DNA from: a bacterium
GTDB lineage: Bacteria > Patescibacteriota > Minisyncoccia > UBA6257 > 02-FULL-45-10c
Reading direction: 5' to 3'
DNA length: 41,024 bases
Assembly: GCA_030700025.1 (NCBI GenBank)
Contig: JAUYKI010000002.1
Coordinates: 1 to 41,024, forward strand
The notes under the pieces were generated by a model. It was not told the DNA's origin. It searched no databases and saw nothing but the letters and a program-made list of their open reading frames with translations. Both the position numbers and the translations under genes were made by a program. Shown piece by piece: positions 10,351-31,101 of the stretch (position 1 is its first letter; every line of letters begins with the position of its first letter).

Positions 10351-11556
10351 TTAATTGTCCGTTAGTAGCGCCGCGCGCGTGTAAACGTTGCTTGGAGCCC
10401 AAAGCATCCAGCCGATTGGCGTACTGCTGGCGGATTTATAAGTGGCGGTTATCTGGGCGCGAACCTTGGTAGCGTCGTAAGTTGCTCCCATATCAAAATC
10501 TTGCAGCCATGGCCGGAGTTGGCCGCGAACAGTCTGAGTGGTGCTGGCGTTTTTTAAATGTTCCAACCGTTGATACGCGGTATACATAGATTCAAAAACT
10601 ACCTCATACGGTTTTTCGGCCGGATTTTTATATCCCAGGAAACCGCTATTATAATGGGACGGATAAACCATCGGCGCCACATAATCAAAATAAATGTAAG
10701 CATTTTCAATAATTTGGCCGATGCCCAGATCATCGTAAAGAAGAGTGGTGTAGCCGAAAAGATCGGCGGATAGGCGGGCATCTCCCAAATGTTCCCTTAA
10801 GTATTGAAAGAACCGGCGGACGGTTTCTGATTTGCTGGTTTTTTTGTTCCAAGCCGGATAAACAACGTCTTTCATATTGCCGTCCGAAGCAAAGCGGATA
10901 TAGTCAAAGTTAACTTCATCAAATCCCCTGGCCAACGCGTCTCGGGCAATTTCAATGTTATAGTCCCAGACTTCTTGCGCGGCGGTATCCATCCACATTA
11001 CGCCTTTATAATCTTTCCATTGTTTGCCAGTGGAAGAGCTGGTTAGGGCAAGATCCGGGCGGCCCAGCGCTAAAGTCGGGTCCTGAAAAACAGTTTGCCG
11101 GGCAATGACATAAATTCCGTTATCGTGGAGTTTTTTGATCAAAGCGTTAGGCCTTAAAATTTTTAAATCTCTTTTGGCTCCGTATTTTTCCACATCTTCC
11201 AGCGCGGTTGGATAACTTAATTCTCCGGAATAATCTTTAATATCAATGACAATGGCGTTTACTTCGGTTTCGTTGATTAAATTAATTAAACGGGTAATGC
11301 CCTTTTCACTGCCGGCGGTCCAGCCGGTGGCGTATATTGCCTTAATAATAGCCGGGGGGCTGTCTAACGGCGGTTGCGGTTCAATATCGCTATATGGATT
11401 TGGCTTTGGAGCCGGAGCGGGCGCTGTTTGCACGGCAACTAGTTCGGCGGACGGCTGTAAATCGCCGGAAAAATTAAAATCCCGGCTGTAGGTAAAAAAT
11501 AAAAACAGGCCAAAGCCCGCGAAAATAATTGTTGAGAATCTAAATATCTTGTTCAT
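10351..11556 (-). CDS. putative glycoside hydrolase (DUF4015-like)
   Basis: NAIVIDIKDYSGELSY, GFDEVNFDYIRFASDG, YVAPMVYPSHY; N-terminal membrane anchor. Confidence 0.85.
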   Translation of the reverse strand: MNKIFRFSTIIFAGFGLFLFFTYSRDFNFSGDLQPSAELVAVQTAPAPAPKPNPYSDIEPQPPLDSPPAIIKAIYATGWTAGSEKGITRLINLINETEVNAIVIDIKDYSGELSYPTALEDVEKYGAKRDLKILRPNALIKKLHDNGIYVIARQTVFQDPTLALGRPDLALTSSSTGKQWKDYKGVMWMDTAAQEVWDYNIEIARDALARGFDEVNFDYIRFASDGNMKDVVYPAWNKKTSKSETVRRFFQYLREHLGDARLSADLFGYTTLLYDDLGIGQIIENAYIYFDYVAPMVYPSHYNSGFLGYKNPAEKPYEVVFESMYTAYQRLEHLKNASTTQTVRGQLRPWLQDFDMGATYDATKVRAQITATYKSASSTPIGWMLWAPSNVYTRAALLTDN

Positions 11557-11673
11557 CCCGTTAGAGATAATTAAATTAGTTTTATATATTAAATGAAATT
11601 TAAAATTTAAAAATGTCGGTTGCTGTTAAATCGGCTTTATTACGGTCGCCTATGGCGACCTATCTCTAACGGG
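11557..11673 (-). repeat. Start-codon-abutting inverted-repeat element, copy 1 (CCCGTTAGAGATA...TATCTCTAACGGG)
   Basis: 117 bp; last base adjacent to the ATG of 10351-11556. Interior is inverted relative to the gene compared with the other two CCCGTTAGAG copies. Confidence 0.85.
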
Positions 11674-16572: not shown

Positions 16573-16692
16573 ATGAATCCCGTTAGAGACAACCAAGTCA
16601 AAATTAATATGATAAACAAGATTTTCAATATACAAAGTCGAAAGCCATTAAAATTGGTTAATTTACGATTGCCTCTGGCAATCTGTCTCTAA
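16573..16692 (+). CDS. 39-codon uORF (MNPVRDNQVKINMINKIFNIQSRKPLKLVNLRLPLAICL) spanning the element upstream of typA
   Basis: Open from the upstream ATGAAT to TAA, 4 nt before the typA ATG; expression unknown. Confidence 0.35.
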   Translation: MNPVRDNQVKINMINKIFNIQSRKPLKLVNLRLPLAICL

Positions 16693-16696
16693 CGGG
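16579..16696 (+). repeat. Start-codon-abutting inverted-repeat element, copy 2 (CCCGTTAGAGACA...TGTCTCTAACGGG)
   Basis: 118 bp; flanked by a perfect direct repeat ATGAAT, the right copy of which is the typA start. Confidence 0.88.
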
Positions 16697-18490
16697 ATGA
16701 ATATCCGCAACATCGCCATTATCGCTCACGTTGACCACGGCAAGTCCACTCTCGTGGATACGCTTTTGAAACAATCCGACACGGACTTGGGCAAGCTTAG
16801 CGAACAAGAATTAATTATGGATTTTAACGAGCTGGAACGAGAGCGCGGTATTACGATTTTTTCTAAAAACGCCGCGGTTCAGTACGGTGACACAAAAATC
16901 AATATTATTGATACCCCGGGGCACGCGGATTTTGGCGGCGAAGTGGAGCGGGTTTTAAACATGGCGGACGGAGCACTTTTGCTGGTGGACGCCCAGGAGG
17001 GTCCGATGCCGCAAACCCGTTTTGTTTTAAAAAAAGCTTTATCTATGGGCCACAAGATTGTGGTGGTTATAAATAAAATTGATAAGAAAAATGCCCGGGT
17101 AAATTACGCTTTGGATAAAGTTTTGGATTTATTTATTGAATTAGGAGCCAATGACGAACAATTAAATTTTCCGATTATTTACGCGGCCGCCCGCTTGGGC
17201 AGGGCCGGTTTAACTCCGGACTTAGACAGCATGACTGACGTCAAGCCGGTTTTTGAAACTGTTTTAAAACATATACCGCAACCGCAGGTAAATCCGGATG
17301 CTCCTTTGCAAATGATGGTAGTTTCCATTGCTTACGATAATTATCGGGGCAGAATCGGCATCGGCAGAATTTATCAGGGCAAAATTAAAGCCAATCAAGC
17401 CGTTATGCATATCAGCCGCGAAGGAAAAAGCACCAACAGCAAATTAACCGCTTTAATGACTTTTCTTGGATTAGCGCGCGTTGCCGTCGAAGAAGCGGAA
17501 GCTGGCGATATTGCCGCGATATCCGGAATCGCGGATATTAACATTGGCGATACTATTGCCGACCCGATTAATCCGATCGCGTTGCCCCCGATTAACATTG
17601 AGAAGCCGACTGTGAAAATGGTTTTTGCGGTAAATAACTCCCCTTTTTCCGGAAAAGAAGGCCAATACTGCACCTCCCGCAATTTAAAAGAACGGCTGGA
17701 AAAAGAATTGGACAATGACGTGGCGCTCCGCGTGGAGCAGGGAAAATCTCCGGACGAATTCGTGGTCAGCGGCCGCGGTGAATTGCATTTGGCTATTTTA
17801 ATTGAAAAAATGCGGCGCGAAGGATACGAACTCCAGGTTTCCCGCCCGGAAGTTATTATGCGGGTAGAAAACGGAAAAACTATGGAGCCGGCGGAAGACG
17901 CCTGGATTGAAGCGCCGGAAAAATATTCCGGAGCGGTTATTGAAAAAATGGGCAAGCGCAAAGGACTGATGAAAAATATGAATATGGAAAACGGAGTGGT
18001 TTATTTCCACTTCTTTATCCCGACCCGCGGATTGATCGGATTCCGAAACGAATTTTTAATTGATACCAAAGGCAACGGAATTATTAATACTCTTTTTGCC
18101 GGTTATCATCCGAAATGGGAAGATATCCAGACTAATATCCACGGATCTTTGGTGGCTCACGAAACCGGCGCGTCCACGGCGTACGCCCTTTTGAGCAATC
18201 AGGAGCGCGGAGAAATGTTTATCGGCCCCGGCGTTCAAGTTTATGAGGGCCAGGTAGTCGGCCAAAATGCAAAACTTGGAGATGTCGTAGTTAATGTTTG
18301 TAAAGCAAAACAATTGACTAATTTCCGAGCAAAAACCGATGCCGTAACCGACGATTTAATTCCGCCCCGGCCAATGTCTTTGGAACAAGCGCTGGAATAT
18401 ATCGGCGATGATGAACTGGTGGAAATTACGCCAAAAAGCATCCGTCTGCGGAAAAGAATTTTGAAGAATACTTTAAGAAATAAACGTTAA
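16697..18490 (+). CDS. typA: translational GTPase TypA/BipA
   Basis: [60 protein letters not shown]. Confidence 0.95.
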
Positions 18491-28868: not shown

Positions 28869-29144
28869 TTAATCACTGGTTTTGGGCGGAACAATAATTA
28901 TCAGCTTCTCGCCTGGCGCCTTATAATTTAACTTCTCTCTTAATTCTTTGGCAAGATTGCCGGCTTCGGCCAAATAGCTCAAATCCGCTTCTAAAACCGT
29001 ATTTTCCTTGGAAACGCCGGTTAGTTCAGTATTGATTTTAGATAAATTGCTTTCTAAGCTAAGATTCTGACCGTACAGCCTAAAAAGCTGAACGCCGACA
29101 GCTACTAATATAATAGATAAAATTATGGTGACGATGGATTTCAT
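28869..29144 (-). CDS. septum-formation initiator-like (DivIC/FtsL-type) protein
   Basis: N-terminal TM plus coiled-coil, 91 aa, YLAEAGNLAKELREKLNYKAPGEKLIII. Confidence 0.65.
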   Translation of the reverse strand: MKSIVTIILSIILVAVGVQLFRLYGQNLSLESNLSKINTELTGVSKENTVLEADLSYLAEAGNLAKELREKLNYKAPGEKLIIIVPPKTSD

Positions 29145-29263
29145 CCCGTTAGAGGCAGACCATCTTTAGATGGTCGTAAATAGGCCGATTTAACCGCGAC
29201 TGATGTTTTATGTTTAAAATTTGTTTTAGCATAGATAGCTTAGGCTTAGTTGCCTCTAACGGG
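29145..29263 (-). repeat. Start-codon-abutting inverted-repeat element, copy 3 (CCCGTTAGAGGCA...TGCCTCTAACGGG)
   Basis: 119 bp; abuts the ATG of 28869-29144; shares GGTTAAATCGGC..TATT.ACG plus hairpin with copy 1. Confidence 0.88.
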
Positions 29264-29268
29264 ATCAT
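29149..29268 (-). CDS. 39-codon uORF (MIPLEATKPKLSMLKQILNIKHQSRLNRPIYDHLKMVCL) spanning element copy 3
   Basis: Open from ATGAT to TAA-CGGG-ATG, same length and stop position as the typA uORF. Confidence 0.35.
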   Translation of the reverse strand: MIPLEATKPKLSMLKQILNIKHQSRLNRPIYDHLKMVCL

Positions 29269-29301: not shown

Positions 29302-31101
29302 CTATTTCTTAAGAAGCTCCTTAAAAATTTTAGCCGGAATATTAACCTGAGTTTTCATGCCGCGTTCTTGAAGCCGTTCCTTTCCGCGCTTTTGTTTTTT
29401 CCAAAGCTTCATTTTTCTGGTCCGGTCACCGCCGGTTTTTCCAAAGTTACCCAGCTCTTTACGCATTGCCGGAATATCTTCTCTGGCAATAATCCGCCCG
29501 CCGACTATGGCCTGCAAGGCCTGGGAAAATTGCTGTTGGGGCAACAGATCTTTTAACTTTTCCAAAGTTTTTCTCCCCTCCCTTTCTATATCGCTCTTAT
29601 GGATAATCCGGGTTAAACCGCTGACTTTATGGCTGGCTACAAAAACCTCCAGCTTAGCGACTTCGGTTCTTTGATACTCCGATACTAAATAACTTAGCGA
29701 GGCATAACCCGCGGAAATGGATTTCAGCTGATCATCAAAATCCCTGATTAATTCTGCCAGCGGCAAAAGAGCGGAAACTAACAAAGAATTTTTTCCCAGG
29801 TTTTCAGTGGTAATATCCCGCAAACGAAAGGTGTCTTGGAGGCGCATAATGGCGCCTAAATATTCCGCGGGCACTAAAATTTCTACTTTGGCCATTGGTT
29901 CTTCTACTTCTATGTAATCTAATGGAAAATCCTCAGGATAGTTAACCATTTTCCATTGGCCGTCCCGTAATTTTACGCGGTAGGAAACCGATGGAAAGCT
30001 GTGAACGGTGTTTAAGCTAAACTCTTTTTCCAAACGTTCAGCGGTAATTTCAAAATGCAGCCGCCCCAAAAATCCGCTTTTAAATCCCCGGCCCAAAAAT
30101 TCGTTAAAGTCCGGCTCAAACTTTAAAGAAGAGTCATTTAGCCGCAGTTTGCCCAGCGCATTTTTAAGATCATCATAATCATCCGCCTCTTCCGGGTAAA
30201 AAGAAACGAATACTACCGGCTGAGGATCTTTATAACCGTGCAAAGCGCCGGCAGAAGGGTCGGTAGTTATAGTATCGCCGATTTTCAGAGTTTCCGGGTC
30301 TTTTAATCCCGTAGCTACATAACCAATCTGGCCATTTTCGATTTTTGAAGAAATTTTTAACTCCGGGGAAAAGTAGCCAAGCTCTTTAATTTTAAATTCG
30401 GTATTAGTTGCCAGCAGAAATGCTCTTTGATCGGGTGAAATTTCCCCATCAAATGCCCGGACCGCGGCCACGATGCCTTTATGTTCATGGTAAAAAGAAT
30501 CGAAGATAAGCGCTCGGAAGACTTTAGAATTTTTTTCTTCCTTTCTTGCCGAGGTGGGATGCGGAACTTTTTTAATTACAGCGTTTAATAAATCAGCAAC
30601 GCCTAATCCAGTTTTTCCGGATACTTTATAAATTTCATTTTCCGGAACGCCAATCAGTTCCGCGGTGCTTTTAATAACATCTTCCACCCCCGGCGGATTC
30701 ATATCTACTTTATTAACCGCGCCGACAATGGTCAGCCCTGCTCTTTGAGCGGCGTGAAAATTCGCCAAGGTTTGGGCCTGGATTCCTTGAGTGGCATCTA
30801 CTAATAAAATTGCTCCGTCTACTGCCTCCAGCGCCCTGGAAACTTCATAGGAAAAATCGGAGTGGCCGGGAGTGTCAATTAAGTTGAGATCGTAAGTAAC
30901 GCCGTCCATTGTATAAGACATCCGCACCGGCGCCATTTTAATGGTAATTCCCCGTTCCCGTTCTAATTCCAATTGGTCTAAAAATTGCGCCTTCATGTGG
31001 CGCTTATCAATAGTCCCGGTAACTTCTAAAAGCCGGTCGGCTAAGGTGGATTTGCCGTGGTCAATGTGGGCAATAATGCAAAAATTGCGGATGTTATTCA
31101 T
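29302..31101 (-). CDS. lepA: elongation factor 4 (LepA)
   Basis: [78 protein letters not shown]. Confidence 0.95.
   Translation of the reverse strand: MNNIRNFCIIAHIDHGKSTLADRLLEVTGTIDKRHMKAQFLDQLELERERGITIKMAPVRMSYTMDGVTYDLNLIDTPGHSDFSYEVSRALEAVDGAILLVDATQGIQAQTLANFHAAQRAGLTIVGAVNKVDMNPPGVEDVIKSTAELIGVPENEIYKVSGKTGLGVADLLNAVIKKVPHPTSARKEEKNSKVFRALIFDSFYHEHKGIVAAVRAFDGEISPDQRAFLLATNTEFKIKELGYFSPELKISSKIENGQIGYVATGLKDPETLKIGDTITTDPSAGALHGYKDPQPVVFVSFYPEEADDYDDLKNALGKLRLNDSSLKFEPDFNEFLGRGFKSGFLGRLHFEITAERLEKEFSLNTVHSFPSVSYRVKLRDGQWKMVNYPEDFPLDYIEVEEPMAKVEILVPAEYLGAIMRLQDTFRLRDITTENLGKNSLLVSALLPLAELIRDFDDQLKSISAGYASLSYLVSEYQRTEVAKLEVFVASHKVSGLTRIIHKSDIEREGRKTLEKLKDLLPQQQFSQALQAIVGGRIIAREDIPAMRKELGNFGKTGGDRTRKMKLWKKQKRGKERLQERGMKTQVNIPAKIFKELLKK

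Follow-up and report, generated by a model that had tools for sequence, protein, structure and literature searches.

Why should reading frames of the same length stand directly before the start codons of two genes? In the window (the whole stretch of 41,024 nucleotides that we analyzed), a DivIC/FtsL-like gene and typA are each preceded by a 118- to 119-bp element that carries a 39-codon upstream frame. An earlier note on this DNA had proposed either that the length of this frame is selected for coupling to the host gene or that a short peptide or RNA is conserved. We therefore asked what the element is, where it occurs, and why its frame is open.

An element between two copies of a host start codon

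The window belongs to a Patescibacteria-like genome (labeled G000) of 830 kb in 18 contigs, for which gene calls beyond the proteins named here are ORF-based. It also encodes a bacterial RNase P class A RNA (positions 851 to 1202; Rfam RF00010, 107.5 bits). On the minus strand, the DivIC-like locus reads ATGAT (29268-29264), then the element (29263-29145), then ATGAAATCC (from 29144). The arrangement first described is present, with 119 bp plus a 5-nt flank at this gene versus 118 bp plus 6 nt at typA, as are the 39-codon uORF ending in TAA-CGGG-ATG at both copies and the in-frame Met at codon 13 (Table 1).

Table 1. Positions in the window of the element, its parts, its other copies, and the genes concerned
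Feature	Position	Strand	Remarks
Element at DivIC/FtsL-like gene, predicted to be non-autonomous	29145..29263	(-)	119 bp; CCCGTTAGAGGCA...TGCCTCTAACGGG
Left terminal inverted repeat, CCCGTTAGAGGCA	29251..29263	(-)	Pairs and covaries with right repeat across copies
Right terminal inverted repeat, TGCCTCTAACGGG	29145..29157	(-)	Contains sORF stop TAA
Hairpin GACCATC-TAAA-GATGGTC, stacked on terminal stem	29158..29175	(-)	Compensatory changes across copies
Upstream copy of duplicated target, ATGA (host start codon plus A)	29265..29268	(-)	ATGRA(T)-element-ATGRA recurs over copies
Downstream target copy, functional start codon of DivIC-like gene	29141..29144	(-)	Element-free orthologues begin at same residue
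39-codon uORF, from duplicated ATG to TAA in right repeat	29149..29268	(-)	TAA at 29151-29149, then CGGG-ATG
Internal 27-codon sORF (MLKQILNIK...)	29149..29232	(-)	Part recurring across copies
Host gene, DivIC/FtsL-like septum protein, 91 aa	28869..29144	(-)	Pfam DivIC; orthologues in 15 relatives
Gene upstream of DivIC-like gene, translational GTPase	29302..31101	(-)	GTPase match at 30676-31095
Second copy, at typA	16579..16696	(+)	118 bp, flank ATGAAT
39-codon uORF of typA copy, ending TAA-CGGG-ATG	16573..16692	(+)	Same layout as DivIC-like copy
typA/bipA, host of second copy	16697..18490	(+)	Pfam GTP_EFTU and BipA_C
Third copy, reversed relative to host gene, adjoins host ATG	11557..11673	(-)	Without long sORF
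Host gene of third copy, DUF4015 putative glycosyl hydrolase	10351..11556	(-)	Pfam

The match of the host protein to Pfam DivIC (E=1.8e-5, 24.9 bits) lies under the 28.9 cut-off. The upstream GTPase gene, LepA-like by inference, is separated from the DivIC start by 157 nt; this gap measures 9-80 nt in most relatives but 187 nt in one of them. Within the family, the orthologues of S7, typA, and the DivIC-like gene begin at the corresponding residue, and the upstream gap of S7 amounts to 162 nt where an element is present, compared with -4 to 37 nt where there is none. Insertion is precise relative to orthologues that lack the element. The S7 (rpsG) start codon carries different elements of the superfamily in two members of the family, genomes G008 (L259) and G000 (L257), which are apparently independent insertions.

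A MITE-like element in many genomes

The ends of the element are inverted repeats of the form YCCCGTTAGAG...CTCTAACGGGR. These terminal repeats span 13-14 bp, show compensatory changes, and are followed by a covarying hairpin, whose arms pair among copies as GGTCGCC/GGCGACC, GATTGCC/GGCAATC, or GACCATC/GATGGTC. They are flanked by a duplicated target with a TGRA core, whose copies usually read ATGAAT or ATGGAT (left) and ATGRA (right), the length of the duplication being ambiguous within 4-6 bp; duplication pairs in related elements are GTCCAC, GTCAAC, GTGGAC, and ACTTAT. Since the left flank is the duplicated target at a start codon, the upstream ATG is a duplicated host start codon. The first reading did not include this, nor that the element is mobile and widespread, nor that a GIY-YIG element shares its ends. 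The 115-120 bp elements contain no transposase gene, only sORFs of about 30 codons. The element thus resembles a MITE in being short, AT-rich, and without a transposase gene, and in having inverted repeats, a target duplication, and many copies in both orientations.

Copies with both ten-base ends exact number 13 in the genome, and a covariance model built from them finds 16 copies of 115-120 bp; since a control pattern gave 0 matches, this occurrence is not due to chance. In all 16 copies, ...CTCTAACGGG is followed immediately by the A of a host ATG. The hairpin end lies at the gene in 13, and three are reversed (11557-11673, L005, and L006), adjoining the host ATG without a long frame. Copies were found with the model in 26 of the 101 genomes searched (this genome and its relatives), while of the order's 244 genomes 56 contain exact CTCTAACGGGATGA, with 0 occurrences of the reversed control pattern among the matches listed.

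Some insertions are nested or in tandem (L198, L135, and L119/L148), lying at the GIY-YIG start codon of another element, directly behind one, or inside one. Inverted repeats, target duplication, and nested copies are the mark of a mobile element and, judged from its sequence, the 119-base element is mobile DNA, non-autonomous and MITE-like. Shorter palindromes that share the element's ends, 45-75 bp long, lie inside ORFs (L107, L112-L116, L120-L122, L125, L129, L134, L143, and L145). Their lengths (45, 48, 51, 66, 69, and 75 bp) are all multiples of 3, so that insertion with a 6-bp duplication preserves the reading frame. Among the relatives between genes, lengths of 68 or 70 bp are common.

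Location at start codons

We counted 94 distinct copies of the 115-120 bp length class, which share ancestry and are therefore not independent; 83 of them adjoin a gene's ATG, 78 of these in the forward orientation. The non-coding ATGRA sites in the window comprise 15 at starts and 27 between genes, for a chance start share of 0.36, from which the observed share departs with p about 4e-26. When one copy is drawn per genome, a start-codon copy is obtained in 18.7 of 21 genomes. The hosts recognized by Pfam include S7, L29, L24, L17, ClpP, TypA, a glycosyltransferase, and the DivIC-like protein, to which inspection of sequences adds bL25. Essential genes, such as those for ribosomal proteins, are thus among them.

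Short frames that end just before the host start codon

Among the 76 forward start-codon copies, 53 contain an ATG-started sORF of 24-31 codons ending in TAA-CGGG-ATG; its TAA belongs to the right repeat and is separated from the host ATG by 4 nt. Frame openness, for which the earlier note had suggested comparison with shuffled controls, clearly exceeds them: 200 dinucleotide shuffles of the interior gave a mean of 1.9 sORF copies and a maximum of 6. On the opposite strand, with the same TAACGGG end, an sORF is present in 0 of 71; with one copy per genome, the figures are 9.9 of 20 versus 0.

These findings bear on whether the element could be just an ordinary MITE that recognizes a short TNNA target, is confined to starts because a gene-dense genome tolerates it nowhere else, and has open frames that are incidental. 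Such an element would likewise recreate the ATG by target duplication, and related elements do sit elsewhere (a 99-bp class in G028 and the 68-70 bp intergenic copies). However, copies concentrate at starts although intergenic ATGRA sites are the more numerous, start-codon copies share one orientation almost throughout, the sORF is strand-specific and far more frequent than in shuffles, and essential ribosomal genes are among the hosts. We consider this explanation unlikely.

The layout upstream of the sORF varies. The ATG-ATG distance, 124 nt at both the DivIC-like gene and typA, is not fixed but ranges from 120 to 127 over 58 copies. The left ATG is missing in 20 of 78 copies, and only 29 of the 58 that have it place it in the same frame as the final TAA. 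A single ORF leads to the final stop in 15 of the 58 copies with a left ATG. In another 27, there is a two-ORF route, the first short ORF ending near an internal ATG with a gap of -4 to +22 nt in 26 of the 27. The remaining 16, many of them of the CGCGATCGC class, have no complete translation route. The two 39-codon uORFs are therefore one among several layouts, and the proposal that ORF length is selected for coupling holds in part: the excess of sORFs over shuffles and over the opposite strand supports coupling, but the length is not fixed.

A second structural class (CCCGTTAGA-RGC-CGCGATCGC; CCCGTTAGARGC-CGCGRTCGC...GRTCGCGRYC) also occurs at ATGs (L016, L034, L036, L037, L038, L042, L085, L095, L101, L102, and L105), mostly without a coupled sORF; reversed copies are likewise without one. 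Both weigh against the coupling reading.

Pairing within the terminal stem is predicted for the 12 nt before the host AUG (computed value of 0.95). Initiation directly at this AUG would therefore be expected to be inefficient, and the predicted pairing fits a need for coupling. A covarying stem and hairpin directly 5' of the AUG might instead belong to a cis-regulatory leader, domesticated and propagated for its effect on gene regulation in the manner of an attenuator or RNA thermometer, in which structured RNA before the AUG controls translation, and the element is indeed found at some orthologous genes in several genomes. Yet the hosts are functionally mixed and differ among genomes, most orthologues are without the element, its repeats, target duplication, and nested copies are those of mobile DNA, and no Rfam family matches it at gathering thresholds, all of which makes such a leader quite improbable.

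Substitutions in the sORF fall almost evenly on the three codon positions (123/96/105) with a dN/dS of ~0.75, values that are indicative since the pairs compared are related, and diverged copies have little in common beyond residues encoded by the hairpin and repeats. With so little codon-position bias, it is the open frame, not the peptide, that appears to be kept. The suggested Ka/Ks comparison therefore reveals little peptide constraint and, of the conserved peptide or RNA once proposed, the peptide is not clearly conserved whereas the structure is, in the covarying repeats and the hairpin. Although 27-aa frames recur, the codon-position counts give no support to the sORF being a functional conserved micropeptide, to which we attach hardly any probability.

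A GIY-YIG element with the same ends

The same ends enclose a longer element of 272-280 bp, whose sole ORF encodes a single-domain GIY-YIG protein of about 86 aa (PF01541, E=3.2e-18). Residues Y3, Y5, Y16, G18, R26, and E62 are invariant in 7 copies, so the catalytic positions are kept and a nuclease is predicted. The nearest solved relatives are UPF0213/COG2827 proteins (PDB 1zg2 and 1ywl), for which our searches show no membership of a mobile element. The genome under study has a copy on contig C7 (G000:C7, about 2543-2815), several relatives hold more, and in G028 a 274-bp start-codon copy contains the GIY-YIG ORF.

We examined the 80 closest GIY-YIG relatives from GTDB genomes and found paired ends at 75 of these loci, with lengths of 272-280 bp save for two longer ones. 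In 46 of the 75, the element adjoins the ATG of a frame 50 codons or longer (in a few cases cut by a contig end), and 44 of these 46 have ATGA as their right flank, so the target supplies a GIY-YIG stop that overlaps the host start (GGG-ATGA). At the other end, the GIY-YIG ORF begins at the host's own start codon (MNPVRDN...YVYIL) in 25 of the 43 elements that have a left start codon. The left and right ends covary to an extent reached in 0 of 1000 shuffles, and covariation extends to the base outside the core, which is T...A or C...G in 70 of 72. Judged by these shared ends, the 272-280 bp element is likely the autonomous partner of the 115-120 bp element, although we know of no GIY-YIG protein that acts as a transposase.

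GIY-YIG elements were found in Patescibacteria and in records titled Omnitrophota, Planctomycetota, Desulfobacteraceae, Syntrophaceae, and a woesearchaeote, where single cases may be binning errors since these records are MAGs. Some element-bearing genomes (e.g., G074 and G088) have no GIY-YIG copy with the element ends among the loci examined, and no other transposase lies inside the same ends in the stretches examined of the genome under study. A phage origin of the ORF was rejected for the collections searched, which gave only weak GIY-YIG matches, to one viral contig and to one Vibrio phage (two records).

Different inverted repeats, such as TGACCCCGCACCTTTCAAGCAC, CGGGTAGTGAAAATTCGA, and the common repeats of the GTCATTGCGAGCGAAG... 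and CCTGAGCTCGTCGAAGG types, surround further small GIY-YIG ORFs of these genomes (L155, L162, L158, L167, L164, L152, L161, L163, L151, and L168). This suggests a broader principle, by which more than one family of genomic palindromes may be driven by GIY-YIG nucleases.

A proposed relay of ribosomes between two start codons

Taken together, we think it probable that the element belongs to a family of mobile elements that dwell in start codons and are rendered harmless by translational coupling, a reading in which both the coupling and mobilization by the GIY-YIG protein are inferred. Insertion at A/TGRA would duplicate the target, and a second ATG would arise at the downstream junction (...CGGGA/TG). 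With the target duplicated, the host's ribosome-binding site and ATG remain upstream. Ribosomes from the original ATG would enter the element, through either one ORF of ~39 codons or a short ORF stopping near an internal ATG, and would open the terminal stem as they translate the sORF. They would then terminate at TAA-CGGG-ATG and could reinitiate at the regenerated ATG. By such a relay from the original to the duplicated start, essential genes seem to be invaded without being switched off. Selection against inactivation of the host gene would keep frames open in the non-autonomous copies, and the GIY-YIG protein would act as mobilizing nuclease for both element sizes.

Several known systems are similar in part. 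The element differs from other MITEs in being nearly confined to start codons with a frame that would couple to the host gene, and in that the ORF inside the shared ends is a GIY-YIG nuclease, with a putative role in transposition, and not a DDE or HUH transposase. Nor is it a classical insertion sequence, since GIY-YIG is the sole ORF and no DDE, HUH, serine, or tyrosine transposase was found. A homing endonuclease gene has a single cognate site and is missing from the allele that is cleaved, whereas the present element is found at numerous unrelated sites, where a short target is duplicated. Rickettsia palindromic elements are in-frame insertions inside ORFs, tolerated because their frames are open; this tolerance of palindromic repeats is shared, but the 115-120 bp class lies at start codons, whereas the 45-75 bp relatives, which do lie within ORFs, look like the Rickettsia elements. 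The free-standing GIY-YIG homing endonucleases of phage T4 (seg genes) are small selfish nucleases between or overlapping host genes, and overlapping start and stop codons have been described for mobE, segC, and segF (PMC2988022). The GIY-YIG element is likewise a small selfish nuclease gene with a start/stop overlap. However, it is the upstream gene that the T4 genes overlap, whereas the GIY-YIG stop runs into the start codon of the gene downstream. The GIY-YIG element further differs in its inverted repeats and duplicated target, in its many unrelated sites and its non-autonomous derivatives, and in starting from the host's own ATG. IStrons are spliced out of RNA, which limits damage to the host gene (PMC4227781); the present element would limit it by translational coupling, with no splicing. 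No published description of the element was found in open-access full text, sequence strings included.

Whether these elements form a new superfamily of minimal transposable elements, living in start codons and mobilized by a single-domain GIY-YIG protein of ~86 aa, we regard as an even question. Should GIY-YIG prove to be the enzyme of transposition, the family would be new in kind. The reading would also account for a group of small GIY-YIG genes found in Patescibacteria and in other phyla. The motifs MNPVRDN... / ...SLTG and CTAACGGGATG would offer a sequence-only handle on such elements, which would help to correct the annotation of start codons and small ORFs. If the relay is real, translation across a duplicated start codon would be a further harmless route into essential genes, beside the established routes of RNA splicing (introns and IStrons) and protein splicing (inteins).
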